From Vulcanimicrobiota bacterium (GTDB lineage Bacteria > Vulcanimicrobiota > JAJTBE01): 64,000 nt of DNA. How positions within the stretch are numbered: the stretch's first letter is position 1; each line of letters opens with the position of its first letter. The notes below the pieces were generated by a model. It saw nothing but the letters and a program-made list of their open reading frames with translations, searched no databases and had not been told where the DNA came from. This document shows, in pieces, positions 47,637 through 54,026 of this stretch. Where the stretch lies: assembly GCA_021107945.1 (NCBI GenBank), contig JAIORV010000099.1, positions 1 through 64,000 on the forward strand, given 5' to 3'. Position numbers and translations under genes: made by a program.

Positions 47637-47686
47637 TTAGGAAATTAGGGGGGTTATCTCTTAGGAAATTAGGAAACCGGATAAAT

Positions 47687-47950
47687 GAATGCTGAATCTG
47701 TAAGATGGACGTCCCCATCCCGATAAACGGATGGCGAATCTGTAGGAGGGACGTCCCCGTCCCGATAAACGGATGGCGAATCTGTAAGATGGACGTCCCC
47801 GTCCCGATAAACGGATGGCGAATCTGTAGGAGGGACGTCCCCGTCCCGATAAACAAAAAACGACAAACGCAGGTTCTATAGGAGGGGTTTCCTAACCCAG
47901 ATAAACGGATGGTAGATCTTATAAGATGGACGTCCCCGTCCCGACAGCAG
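47687..47950. repeat. 42-bp tandem repeat of a palindromic GGACGTCCC unit
   Basis: Four exact-length 42-bp units lie head to tail at 47687-47728, 47729-47770, 47771-47812 and 47813-47854. They are followed by a diverged unit (47855-47906, with GGGGTTTCCTAACCC in place of GGGACGTCCCCGTCCC) and a last one (47907-47950). Each unit holds TAGGAGGGACGTCCCC or TAAGATGGACGTCCCC, the two versions alternating, and CCCGATAAAC. Single related units lie at 6198, 28817 and 57256. The 42-bp length keeps a frame open on the minus strand, but no ribosome site supports a gene. Confidence 0.85.
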
Positions 47951-47963
47951 GTATCTACACCGC

Positions 47964-49970
47964 CTACTGCCCTACCTCCGCCGCCGCCTGGATGTATTCG
48001 ATTCCCTTATCTCTGAGCACTTCACCGGCAGACTGCTCTTCCATTCCCTGTGCGATCAATTCCTGCGCCTGATTCATCATCTCATCGGCGCGGAATTTAT
48101 CATCTATACCGTCATTTTTCAGGCTTTCGCCATTTTTCATTAATTCCCGGGCTTTCTGGAGGAGCGCAAGTCCTTCTTTTTCTTTTGCCTGACCCACTTG
48201 TTCCTGTGCAATACCGCTATATATCAGATTCAGACCCTTCTCCTGCACCTTTAGCGACCCGGCGGATGCTGTCATACCTTTTTCGATCTTCTTGAGACCT
48301 TTTTTCTTTTGTATTTTCGCGGAGCCTTCGATCATTCGACCCTCGATGAATTCCATGAATCCCCCGGATTGAGTCCCAAGAGCCTGCTCACTTTTCTCAA
48401 CGCCGGTCATTGCCTGCTCGACGCCTTCCTTAACAATTCCGAGGCCTTCTTTTTCCTTTTCCATACCAGCTTGAAACTTTTCAAGTCCCGATTGTTGACG
48501 CACTTTCCCATGATCCGCATGCTTAATACCCCTACCGATATCCTTCATTCCATCGCGATGGAGCTTCTTGCCTTCTTTTTTTACGGATTTACCTATCTGT
48601 TCAAGGTTGTCTGCTTCTTCAAACAATTCCCCTGCTTGTTCCTTCTCCAGACCGGCTTCCTTTCGAAGACCCTTTGCAATTTTATTCTTCTTTTTGGCAA
48701 TCTGTCTGTGCTCCCAGGCGTCTTTCTTGATGCCCGCGGATTCTCTCCTCATAAGCTCAGCCTGCTTCTTGAGCATCAATGCTTCCTGCTCCTCACGCTT
48801 CGCTTGCACAAGCAGAGCTTTCGAAGTTTCCATATACCGGGTTCCGCGTCCCATCTCGCTCATTCCCTGGTTCCTCATACACCAGCCAACATGCCAACTG
48901 AAGGGACAAGACATTTGGAAATTGCTGTTAAGATAGTTGTTATATCCGTATTTATACCATGCCTGCCCTGCGCGCATGAACCGCTTACTTCTTTTCTTCT
49001 CGGCTTTTGCATGCCGAAGCATCTTTGCGGCCTTTGCCTCGAGTTCTGCTGCTTTCTTGTGAAGCTTTTCCGATTTCGCTTCCTCGGATTTTGCAATATC
49101 TATATTATTCTTTGCCGATTCGTTAAGTTGATCCGCCTTGCCTGTCTTGAAATCGGCATTGTCATCAAGCTCCTCTGCCTCGACCCTCTGAGCGAATGCC
49201 TGATCAACCTTCTGCTCGCCTTGTGAAACTTTTTCCATACCCGATATAAGCTTGTCACGTCCCTGATCCTTGAGACCAAGCCCTTTCTCGACCTGTGAGG
49301 TTCCACCCTCGACCTGCTTCAGACCTTTTTTCTCAATTCTCTGACCCGATCCCTCGCGGCGGATTCCCTTTCCAATTTTGACTCCGCCCTTGTACTTATC
49401 TTTTGCCGCAGGCTTTTCTTCCTTTATTCCCTGGGCAATTGTGCCCAGACCACTCATCTCAATATCAGCGGCTTGCTTCTCATCAATGACCCCGCGGGCA
49501 AACTGCCTTGCGCCCTTTGTTTTGACTTTACAGGCGGCTTCATCCCAGCGAAGCCCCTGTTCTATAAGGGAGACGCCCTCGGATTCATCACCGGCCGCAG
49601 TTTTCTTGTCCGCGATACCTGATTCTATAAGCTGAGCTCCATCAGTTTTCTGTTCCCCTGCCTCTATAATCTGTCCTTCGCCATCATCAACTTTGGCTTG
49701 AGCTTTTTCCTGCTCGACTGCAGCTTTTTTGGACTTATGACGACCTACAACCTCATGCATCTTGCCCTTGAGCTTCAACTCAGCACCTTTTTTGATCTCT
49801 TCAAGCCCCTCCTGAGCAAGCTCTTCCGCGGCGTTATAGACGTCGCTTTCGTCAACAACCGATCTATCTTCAATCTCTTTTTTTGCTTTTTTCCCCTGAA
49901 CCTTGCCCGGAGCGCCGACATGTACGGCATTGCGGGCAGGATCAACTGACATATTTTTAGGTATCGACAT
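47964..49970 (-). CDS. Protein of about 15 tandem 21-residue helical repeats
   Basis: A 668-residue cytosolic protein that I do not recognise. Residues 111-257 are seven contiguous 21-residue units of the form GxxxIxxGIxxxxxAAxxxxx, for example GAQLIESGIADKKTAAG and GLGTIAQGIKEEKPAA. Residues 474-641 are eight more with the same length (for example GLKKIEKGMTASAGSL). Between them is a long charged helix with an aromatic/Cys island (WYKYGYNNYL, CPFSWHVGWCM). Lys/Glu content is very high. The frame is open from 50042, but ATG 49970 follows GAGGTGAT and gives MSIPKNMSVDP. A right-handed coiled coil or fibre is inferred. Confidence 0.85.
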   Translation of the reverse strand: MSIPKNMSVDPARNAVHVGAPGKVQGKKAKKEIEDRSVVDESDVYNAAEELAQEGLEEIKKGAELKLKGKMHEVVGRHKSKKAAVEQEKAQAKVDDGEGQIIEAGEQKTDGAQLIESGIADKKTAAGDESEGVSLIEQGLRWDEAACKVKTKGARQFARGVIDEKQAADIEMSGLGTIAQGIKEEKPAAKDKYKGGVKIGKGIRREGSGQRIEKKGLKQVEGGTSQVEKGLGLKDQGRDKLISGMEKVSQGEQKVDQAFAQRVEAEELDDNADFKTGKADQLNESAKNNIDIAKSEEAKSEKLHKKAAELEAKAAKMLRHAKAEKKRSKRFMRAGQAWYKYGYNNYLNSNFQMSCPFSWHVGWCMRNQGMSEMGRGTRYMETSKALLVQAKREEQEALMLKKQAELMRRESAGIKKDAWEHRQIAKKKNKIAKGLRKEAGLEKEQAGELFEEADNLEQIGKSVKKEGKKLHRDGMKDIGRGIKHADHGKVRQQSGLEKFQAGMEKEKEGLGIVKEGVEQAMTGVEKSEQALGTQSGGFMEFIEGRMIEGSAKIQKKKGLKKIEKGMTASAGSLKVQEKGLNLIYSGIAQEQVGQAKEKEGLALLQKARELMKNGESLKNDGIDDKFRADEMMNQAQELIAQGMEEQSAGEVLRDKGIEYIQAAAEVGQ

Positions 49971-50099: not shown

Positions 50100-51341
50100 T
50101 TATCTTCTTATTTTAATTCTCCCGCTGTTTGATTTCAAGCTTATCTCAGGATGATCTATCATATCGGAATCCGAAAGGTATCCTTCCAGGAATTTCTCTT
50201 CCGCTGAATCCTGTTTGCAAAGCTTCGCCCCGTTATCGATATACCCTGATCTTGTCTTTGCCGTTATTTTCCCGTCGCATTCTCCGGGCAGTCTGAGGAC
50301 AATGTATCCCGAGTTTGTCTTTGCTTCGAGTTTCGATCCCTCTTCGAGAACCTCCACATCAGCCTCGATACTTCCCGATGATGTTCTCGCTGTCAGGGTC
50401 TCAACGGTAATCTTCCTTGCCTCGATATCGCCGCTTGAAGTTTTAAGTTGAAATGCTCCCATGGATCTTTCAATCTCGATATCGCCGGAATTTCCGGACA
50501 GTGCAGCTTCACCGGACAGGTCGGTCATCTCGATATCCCCTGATGCGGACTTGCAGTTTATTTTACCTTCCAGCGTTGCTCCTTCTATGTCGCCGGATCT
50601 GCTCTGAAGGTCAATATCACCGGACAATTTGAAAAGCTCTATGTCGCCGCTGACAGTTGAAACTGAAATTGAGCCTATGACCTCGCTGATTCGAACATCT
50701 CCGCTTACACTCTTGATTTTTAGATCTCCATCGGCGATATCAACTTCTATGTCCGAGTCGTTTGTGGAAATGGAAGCTTTCTCTCCACCGAATTTCTGAA
50801 GAAAAACATCGCAGGAGCGTCCTTTTATATCAATATTTCCCGGTATTTGCCGCAAATTTAACTCACCGTCACGAGCTTTGATAGAAATTGGCACTGCGCG
50901 GGGCGACCTGATTTCCATATCAATTTTTTCACAACGGGTTTTACAGGCCTTATGATTGGAAATGTTAAGGATGCCGTTCTCCCGCCTGAATTTCAAACAT
51001 CCCACATGCTCCCTGTCAACATTGATTACAGCTTCCGGGGATTCCTTCCCTTTCAGGTATAAATCCAGCTCTCCCGACAGGTTTATTCTGACTGATTCGA
51101 CGCCGGCAAGTGAAACATCCCCAGTATTTTCTTCTTCTATTTCTTCAGTCGTTCCCACATCTTCTTTTTCCCATGCATCTTCACAATCTTCAAGAACCGC
51201 CATTTCATCATCTACCGGCAGCATATCAAAATGCTCCTCCAGCGCATCCAGGAGATGTTGTCCTTCCTCCGGGTTGACAGTGCCGTCTTTTATCATTTTC
51301 AATACTTTTTCAACCGGACTCTCCATTTCTCTATCACTCAC
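50100..51341 (-). CDS. DUF4097 beta-helix protein with SHOCT-like N-terminus
   Basis: A 413-residue protein. Residues 8-40 are a SHOCT/YvlB-type helical hairpin (VEKVLKMIKDGTVNPEEGQHLLDAL), followed by an acidic linker (45-75). Residues 80-410 form DUF4097-type beta-helix rungs in which SGDIE/SGSIE recurs about every 20 residues (DGDLKIKSVSGDVRI, LSGDIDLQSRSGDIEG, LKTSSGDIEARKI). This is the YvlB/LiaX-like layout; LiaX homologues sense membrane stress in Firmicutes. No signal peptide or transmembrane segment is visible. The GTG start lacks a clear ribosome site; an ATG five codons in is an alternative. Confidence 0.85.
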   Translation of the reverse strand: MSDREMESPVEKVLKMIKDGTVNPEEGQHLLDALEEHFDMLPVDDEMAVLEDCEDAWEKEDVGTTEEIEEENTGDVSLAGVESVRINLSGELDLYLKGKESPEAVINVDREHVGCLKFRRENGILNISNHKACKTRCEKIDMEIRSPRAVPISIKARDGELNLRQIPGNIDIKGRSCDVFLQKFGGEKASISTNDSDIEVDIADGDLKIKSVSGDVRISEVIGSISVSTVSGDIELFKLSGDIDLQSRSGDIEGATLEGKINCKSASGDIEMTDLSGEAALSGNSGDIEIERSMGAFQLKTSSGDIEARKITVETLTARTSSGSIEADVEVLEEGSKLEAKTNSGYIVLRLPGECDGKITAKTRSGYIDNGAKLCKQDSAEEKFLEGYLSDSDMIDHPEISLKSNSGRIKIRR

Positions 51342-51486: not shown

Positions 51487-52437
51487 CTACAACTTCCCCC
51501 CGTTTTTCTTTAAAACTTCCGTTACTTTCTTTTTCCTGGCATCCAATGCGAATTTCAGGGGAGTCTTTCCCTCTTTACTCCTTGCGTTTACATCCGCCTT
51601 GTTGGAAATGAGAATTAAAGCAACTTTTTCGTGTCCTCTCCAGGCGGCCTCGTGAAGTGGCGTTACGCCGTTTGAGTCCCTGGTATTTACCGGCGCTCCC
51701 TTTGAGATGAGAAGTTTTACCATTTCAGCGTGCCCTCCCCTGGCGGCAATCTGAAGCGGCGTGGATTTGCCAGAGCTTTTGGCGTTTACATCTGCACCGA
51801 CTTTTATTAAATATTTGGCGGCATCTATATGTCCCTTCCATGCGGCACAATGAAGCGGGGTAAGCCCATACTTTGAGGAAGCTTTCACATCTGCTCCCCT
51901 GGAAACCAGAAGCTTTGTCATTTTCAGGTTTCCACCGTTGGCCGCAAGGTGAAGAATCGTCCTTCCTCCCTTGTCCTTTTCACTCACATCTATTTTTGCC
52001 CCGTTTGCCAAAAGAATCTCAATCATCGGGGCATCCCCCCTTGAGACAGCGACATGCAATGCAGTCCACTTGTTGGGTCTCAGGGCGTTTACATCCGCTC
52101 CATGAGACAGGAGAATTTGCATTACATCCGGGTGACCGCTTATTGCCGCAAAATGGAGCGGCGTCAACTGATGCTCCGTCTTTGCGTTAACATTTGCACC
52201 TTTTGATAAAAGAAACTCAACAATCTCAGGTTTACCGCATTCCGACGCGCAATGCAGGGGAGTTTTGCCGTCGCCGTGATGTATCATTACAAGACGTGAA
52301 TCCTTCTCAATGAGTCTTTTCATTTTTTGAATACCACCGGTTTTGGCGAATTCATGCATCTCGCAGGCATATATTTTAACGGGAAAAACCATGATAATCG
52401 CCATCACCAGAATAAGTACCACTATTTTATATTTCAT
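51487..52437 (-). CDS. Exported ankyrin-repeat protein
   Basis: A 316-residue protein with a signal peptide (residues 1-25, VFPVKIYA-C) and about eight ankyrin repeats of 33 residues, each with the TPLHxAAxxGH and GADVNAK consensus (for example GLTPLHCAAWKGHIDAAKYL). The first repeat (FAKTGGIQKMKRLIEKDS) is diverged. The repeats form a periplasmic or surface binding scaffold. Repeats are close copies, suggesting recent expansion. GGAGG lies 10 bases before the ATG. Target unknown. Confidence 0.92.
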   Translation of the reverse strand: MKYKIVVLILVMAIIMVFPVKIYACEMHEFAKTGGIQKMKRLIEKDSRLVMIHHGDGKTPLHCASECGKPEIVEFLLSKGANVNAKTEHQLTPLHFAAISGHPDVMQILLSHGADVNALRPNKWTALHVAVSRGDAPMIEILLANGAKIDVSEKDKGGRTILHLAANGGNLKMTKLLVSRGADVKASSKYGLTPLHCAAWKGHIDAAKYLIKVGADVNAKSSGKSTPLQIAARGGHAEMVKLLISKGAPVNTRDSNGVTPLHEAAWRGHEKVALILISNKADVNARSKEGKTPLKFALDARKKKVTEVLKKNGGKL

Positions 52438-53355: not shown

Positions 53356-54026
53356 GTAGAAACCCATCCCTGATGAATAAGGGATTGAGACATCCTTGCT
53401 CTCTACTATTGGCATGTTAATCACGTAGAAACCCATCCCTGATGAATAAGGGATTGAGACTTCTTGCTTTTGCTCTGTTCAAAGCCCACTCAACCTGTAG
53501 AAACCCATCCCTGATGAATAAGGGATTGAGACATGGAGCTTGCAGAATTCCCACCATTGCTGTTACAAGTAGAAACCCATCCCTGATGAATAAGGGATTG
53601 AGACAGTTTTTTAAATTAACATGAAACTCTCTTTATGCCGTAGAAACCCATCCCTGATGAATAAGGGATTGAGACAATTTTCTTATTCTCTCCTTATTCA
53701 TTATGTTACCCGTAGAAACCCATCCCTGATGAATAAGGGATTGAGACTTATAATATGCAATAGTGAGAATAATACTGCCATAGTAGAAACCCATCCCTGA
53801 TGAATAAGGGATTGAGACACAAACTTTAACACAAGACGAGCAAGCAACAAGTAGAAACCCATCCCTGATGAATAAGGGATTGAGACTTTGATTCTAACTG
53901 CTCAATTTCCCTTTGTAATGTAGAAACCCATCCCTGATGAATAAGGGATTGAGACTCTTTCACTGCCAATATGTATTGAATAAACCAATGGCAGAAACCC
54001 ATCCCTGATGAATAAGGGATTGCATG
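53356..54026 (+). CRISPR. CRISPR array, 10 repeats of 36 bp, 9 spacers
   Basis: Nine identical 36-bp repeats begin at 53356, 53425, 53497, 53569, 53640, 53712, 53783, 53851 and 53920. A tenth at 53991-54026 is decayed (second base C, end ATTGCATG in place of ATTGAGAC). Each starts GTAGAAACCC, has a 6-bp stem ATCCCT/AGGGAT around an 8-base loop, and ends TGAGAC. Spacers are 32-36 bp and all different. The ATTGAGAC end resembles the ATTGAAAC crRNA handle of type I-A/I-B and type III systems, so transcription is probably on the plus strand. No cas gene is within 53 kb to the left or 10 kb to the right. Confidence 0.97.

Follow-up and report, generated by a model that had tools for sequence, protein, structure and literature searches.

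In Alacoils, Ala or another small residue occupies every seventh position, as in ROP and the tetramer helix of the Lac repressor, and the axes of the helices lie 7.5–8.5 Å apart. The cases that we know of are short. A published account (PMC3037368, which cites Gernert et al. 1995) describes the Alacoil as antiparallel with a small residue at each seventh position. The cytoplasmic hairpins of chemoreceptors (MCPs) fall into classes designated 24H to 64H, and their heptads are paired by counting from the tip (PMC6943060). Here, we analyze a gene in a 64,000-nucleotide stretch of DNA (the window) from a Vulcanimicrobiota bacterium; with a probability of roughly 0.8, its product is predicted to form a giant antiparallel helical hairpin of the Alacoil type.

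Gene and heptad repeat

The gene, designated family A, is an open frame of 668 amino acids at positions 47964–49970 on the minus strand, as are all features of the protein described below. Residue r corresponds to nucleotide 49970-3(r-1), numbered from the Met at 49970. Upstream of the ATG at 49970 lies the SD-like sequence GAGGTGAT, and the product from this ATG aligns with the start of a paralogue (MSIRDN). For these two reasons, 49970 appears to be the better start and the longer frame from 50042 is less likely; the coordinates, strand, and length given in the initial annotation are right. The protein is very hydrophilic (95 Lys, 81 Glu, and 75 Gly) and contains no membrane-like or signal-like hydrophobic segment, with a maximum hydropathy of 0.31 over 19 residues. 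Its N-terminal tail (residues 1–47; 49830–49970) is predicted to be mostly disordered (pLDDT of 33–37 to residue 40). Codon usage was considered as an indication of high expression and set aside, as its values are average and uninformative. Adjoining the stop codon is an intergenic 42-base tandem repeat (47680–47854; 4.2 copies, 91% matches), apparent decayed copies of which continue to about 47945.

A heptad register runs unbroken over residues 48–349 and 362–663, with 44 heptads on each side, and Gly, Ala, or Ser occupies the same heptad position in 88 of the 88 heptads. Arm 1 (residues 48–348; 48927–49829) accounts for 44 of these when residue 349 is included, and arm 2 (residues 362–668; 47967–48887) for the other 44 (residues 362–663). 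When heptads are counted from the tip in 10 homologues of family A and 11 of family B, the paralogous family, the small position is filled by Gly, Ala, or Ser in 94% of them. Gly–Gly pairs in the window protein occur 38, 30, 36, 27, and 29 times at lags of 7, 14, 21, 28, and 42 residues, respectively, compared with a mean of about 8 and a maximum of 17 in shuffled sequences.

The initial annotation had described fifteen exact 21-residue units in two blocks. The spacing is exact at residues 111–257 and 474–641, although the dominant period is 7; the count of fifteen falls short of the 44 + 44 heptads around the tip, and 21 residues, which had been taken for a non-heptad pattern, equal three heptads. 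The two blocks are the outer, Gly-rich parts of arm 1 (49200–49640) and arm 2 (48048–48551). Small residues in these outer parts run Gly-Gly-Ala, so that Ala recurs every third heptad and the triple gives a genuine 21-residue overtone. Indeed, the choice of Ala/Ser versus Gly recurs at each third heptad (permutation p < 0.0002 in the first half of the protein and 0.0018 in the second); at a lag of one heptad, p was 0.023 and 0.003, and at a lag of two, 0.07 and 0.06. The overtone is weak in family profiles (heptad-shuffle p of 0.002–0.2 for hydrophobic residues, and no signal for Gly). Because of this weakness and the dominance of period 7, 21 residues was rejected as the basic repeat and 7 is taken as the structural unit. 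Nor is the 216-residue stretch between the blocks, previously regarded as a spacer, a break in the pattern. The heptad register runs on through it to the centre at residues 349–362, and counts of small residues reveal that Ala/Ser replaces Gly in the inner part of arm 1 (residues 258–334; 48969–49199) and in the part of arm 2 that mirrors it (residues 383–459; 48594–48824).

Palindromic arms and in-register co-variation

The arms meet at a central turn (residues 349–361, SNFQMSCPFSWHV; 48888–48926). Here, SNFQMSC-PFSWHV places 13 rather than 14 residues between the flanking small positions, a phase slip of one residue, and Pro 356 stands in place of a small residue. This Pro is invariant among the 14 family A homologues in alignment A2. 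The aromatic/Cys island remarked upon earlier is real and marks the centre (residues 342–372; 48855–48947); the tip is rich in Trp, Tyr, Phe, and Cys, and the tip Cys is missing from some homologues. Outward from the centre, the small residues read SGGSAAASAAAAAAGGGGGGGGGAGGAGGAGGAGGAG in the N-terminal arm and GGGSAAASAAAAAAGGGGGGGGGGAGGAGGSGGGGAG in the C-terminal arm. Read in this way, the sequence is a palindrome, in that the choice between Gly and Ala/Ser agrees heptad by heptad in the two arms. Family B is of the same design, with 41–42 heptads per arm compared with 44 in family A. Its centre has the same 13-residue spacing, and nearly all members have Pro at the equivalent place (for example, GEALLEVPLFFEEG); the centre of the copy in the window genome, GKDLLGIDSFIEEG, is without Pro. 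A longer tip insert is present in the family A homologues of three genomes of group f8 and one of group f4 (L031 4059–6077, L034 9904–11907, L037 8725–10728, and L036 9434–11497). The insert is hydrophobic in f8 (maximum hydropathy of 1.4–1.5) and Pro-rich in f4.

When the two arms are compared as mirror images in register, the correlation is 0.62 in family A and 0.64 in family B for Gly identity, and 0.47 and 0.60, respectively, for a hydrophobic residue at +4; none of 39 circular shifts reached these values. In the parallel orientation, the in-register correlation is about zero, and a parallel coiled coil was rejected on this ground. Co-variation was determined in 8 homologues per family, with one kept from each closest pair. 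With column means removed, Gly at mirrored heptads co-varies at 0.48 in family A and 0.50 in family B (z of 5.8 and 9.1 versus other offsets), and at offsets of 2–15 heptads the value is 0.00 ± 0.05–0.08. Kinship inflates the row permutations somewhat; the offset and orientation controls carry the same phylogeny. Gly co-variation at offset -1 is also high in family A (0.49), as would be expected if each small residue nestled between successive layers. Opposite charges in family B co-vary only in register, at three flanking position pairs (0.19–0.24; z of 3.2–4.2); this co-variation is weak in family A (z of 0.8–2.1).

AlphaFold2 predicted a hairpin for both families from shallow alignments of 5 (A) and 8 (B) sequences. 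The mean confidence of the family A model is a pLDDT of 82.5, with a turn at residues 354–355 and a pLDDT of 85 around the tip; the family B model has a pLDDT of 84.2 and a turn at residues 315–319. The centre had been fixed by the heptad analysis before these models were collected. Thus, the mirror correlation, the residual co-variation, and AlphaFold2 agree in indicating that the arms would pair in an antiparallel orientation. The co-variation and the two models also support the suggestion of the initial annotation that the Gly positions mediate tight helix packing; the palindrome, the turn at the centre, the paralogous family, and the restriction to one lineage did not figure in that annotation. 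The pTM of the models is 0.33–0.35, and each arm is broken a second time at mirrored places (residues 184–190 with 526–532 in A and 172–181 with 456–462 in B; pLDDT near 44). The second breaks may correspond to a folded-over bundle resembling the SMC elbow or to a modelling artefact, the latter because the heptad register is continuous there. If straight, the rod would measure ~45 nm (0.15 nm per residue over about 300 residues). Foldseek neighbours of the models include condensin, MukB, Wadjet, and chemoreceptors, all with low TM-scores, and these matches probably reflect a common hairpin shape.

Distribution and genomic context

Profiles matched family A in 20 and family B in 21 of 149 genomes of the phylum, and the two lists overlap almost fully. 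The three f8 genomes (2–3 Mb) contain family A, with B present only as cross-matches; this group appears to have lost B. The members that bear names are Eremiobacterota of the UBP9/Xenobia type and include UBP9_UBA6111, UBP9_UBA1432, CPR1, Ca. Eremiobacterota ACE_ERE1, SZAS-1, and others; one is labelled Burkholderiales, although the genome set places it in this phylum. One study treats UBP9 as a class that is basal within Ca. Eremiobacterota and apparently anaerobic (PMC6664022), and Xenobia is one of three named classes of this group (PMC9758169). The window genome itself probably belongs to Xenobia. Homologues with 19–29% identity align nearly free of gaps along the arms, the length of which is nearly constant. 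When 84,980 species were scanned for the central motif of B, confirmed relatives emerged in this phylum only. The two families thus seem, so far, to be restricted to one group of uncultured bacteria; for A the restriction is less well tested because the scan used the motif of B. A tblastn search of 50,697 phage records and 72,556 plasmid records gave no match, and the B motif gave none in viral contigs; a phage or plasmid origin was rejected on these results.

The window protein has no credible match in Pfam, NCBIfam, or PHROGs. Among PDB sequences, it matches the T7 tail fibre and BpaC with E values of 0.004–0.007 over 77–83 residues of coiled coil; these matches look like common composition, and kinship with either protein was rejected. 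The earlier remark that no family like it was known therefore holds for all four collections. We found no description of the A/B family, which is apparently undescribed, though the literature was not searched specifically for it.

In six genomes, A and B share a contig, where they lie tail-to-tail (convergent) and 0.3 to about 9 kb apart. Beyond this linkage, flanking genes differ between genomes, and an assignment of function by neighbourhood was rejected. Directly upstream of the window's A gene (~50100–51341, minus strand) is a gene for a YvlB/LiaG/LiaX-type protein, which carries toastrack DUF4097 and gives a weak SHOCT-like match, and the B copy of the window genome is flanked by genes for a GIN-domain protein and a GH5 cellulase. 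DUF4097 and GIN-domain neighbours were not recognised beside other A/B copies when flanking genes were typed in relatives; for this reason, these neighbours and the GH5 gene are treated as incidental. Elsewhere in the window are a gene for a 316-amino acid protein that consists almost entirely of ankyrin repeats (51490–52437, minus strand; Pfam Ank, E = 1.7e-72) and a CRISPR-like array (53356–54022) with 10 copies of the 36-base repeat GTAGAAACCCATCCCTGATGAATAAGGGATTGAGAC spaced by 68–72 bases.

A proposed rod, its alternatives, and known systems

The analysis suggests a model in which helix 1, about 44 heptads long, runs up to a Pro-centred turn bearing aromatic and Cys residues, and helix 2, with 44 heptads, returns in register so that Gly would lie opposite Gly and Ala opposite Ala in each layer. 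A small residue at every seventh position would let the two helices pack very closely. The hairpin is probably a cytoplasmic strut of fixed length that may bind partners at its tip and at its base (the N- and C-terminal ends), both of which are conserved; paralogue B would be one likely partner. The rod would hold its partners apart in a manner analogous to the arms of SMC and Rad50 or the hairpins of chemoreceptors, without their heads or sensor domains. A cytoplasmic strut is the simplest reading because signal and membrane segments and enzyme domains are absent, arm length is nearly constant, and the tip and base are conserved; taken alone, the strut or scaffold role has about an even chance of being correct. 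It is tempting to speculate that A and B, as hairpins of fixed but slightly different length, constitute a hitherto undescribed two-component structural system of one bacterial class. The two giant palindromic rods of Alacoil type would then serve as molecular rulers or become subunits of a lineage-specific cytoskeletal or scaffold assembly, an idea that we hold slightly more tentatively than the strut itself.

A serious rival concerns the mechanism only and is compatible with the hairpin. The aromatic/Cys tip might insert into a membrane, with the arms extending into the cytoplasm, as its content of Trp, Tyr, Phe, and Cys would allow; the rival is serious because the f4 and f8 homologues carry the longer insert, which is hydrophobic in f8. 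However, the tip of the window protein has no segment near transmembrane hydropathy, and that of family B is not aromatic, so that we consider membrane tethering unlikely. A little less likely still is pairing of extended chains, either as an antiparallel homodimer or as an A/B heterodimer, in a ~90-nm rod or filament that would be kinked in the middle, at the Pro site. The palindrome and the co-variation are equally expected from such a dimer, and A and B co-occur, but the AlphaFold2 models of both families reverse the chain at the Pro, with high confidence at the tip of A, and a continuous rod has no need of a phase slip. The unequal arms of A and B also fit a heterodimer poorly. The single-chain hairpin is preferred to the dimer solely on account of the predicted turn and the phase slip.

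Two further readings are less probable than these. In the first, the protein is an LEA-like stress protectant, intrinsically disordered until drying or contact with membranes makes it helical, and the heptad is a compositional echo. Its hydrophilicity, its Gly every few turns, and its disordered N-terminal tail suit such a protein; the near absence of gaps in arms of such low identity, the mirrored co-variation, and the conserved turn do not, and we know of no disordered protectant with such a long-range register. Equally improbable is a role outside the cell, as a fibre or as a surface protein of the YhgE/Pip type built on heptad-Gly coils: an adhesin-like DUF4097 protein adjoins the gene, and heptad Gly with a hydrophobic residue four residues on (G-x-x-x-L-x-x) resembles the X-X-X-Leu-X-X-Gly of TIGR03057, but the hydrophobic residue is present in only about a third of the heptads, signal-like and membrane-like segments are lacking, TIGR03057 matches none of 14 A and 11 B members at E ≤ 1 and nothing in the window genome while four control genomes match, and the DUF4097 gene was absent from the flanking genes that were typed in relatives.

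If the hairpin is correct, a rule for pairing, in which Gly meets Gly and Ala meets Ala, can be read from the sequence over about 40 layers, with co-variation that shows in as few as 8 homologues per family, and designers of coiled coils would gain a natural template for tight antiparallel rods of defined length. It would also provide a marker pair of structural proteins for Xenobia-type Eremiobacterota, the cell architecture of which is almost unknown.

Three described systems bear comparison with the hairpin. The arms of SMC, MukB, and Rad50, which gave the best Foldseek matches, are likewise very long intramolecular antiparallel coiled coils with a functional element at the tip, but the family A protein has no ATPase head, hinge domain, or CxxC hook, and its small-residue heptads are uninterrupted. 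Pfam and NCBIfam searches detected no SMC or Rad50 head domain at its ends, which lie within heptads; the window tip SNFQMSCPFSWHVGWC contains no CxxC of the Rad50 zinc-hook type, and one A member has a chance-level match to Rad50 (E = 0.43). Chemoreceptors, also Foldseek neighbours, share the antiparallel helical hairpin, conserved tip, and tip-centred heptad pairing. In contrast, the family A protein has more heptads (88 in total) and lacks a sensor or membrane part; MCPsignal (PF00015) matches neither this protein nor anything else in the window genome, which has no MCP gene. The Alacoil shares the small residue at every seventh position and, as predicted here, antiparallel in-register pairing. 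It differs from the family A protein in that each arm of the latter would comprise 44 layers, rich in Gly in the outer parts and in Ala in the inner ones, within a single chain; no other natural Alacoil-type hairpin that we know of would come close to it in length.
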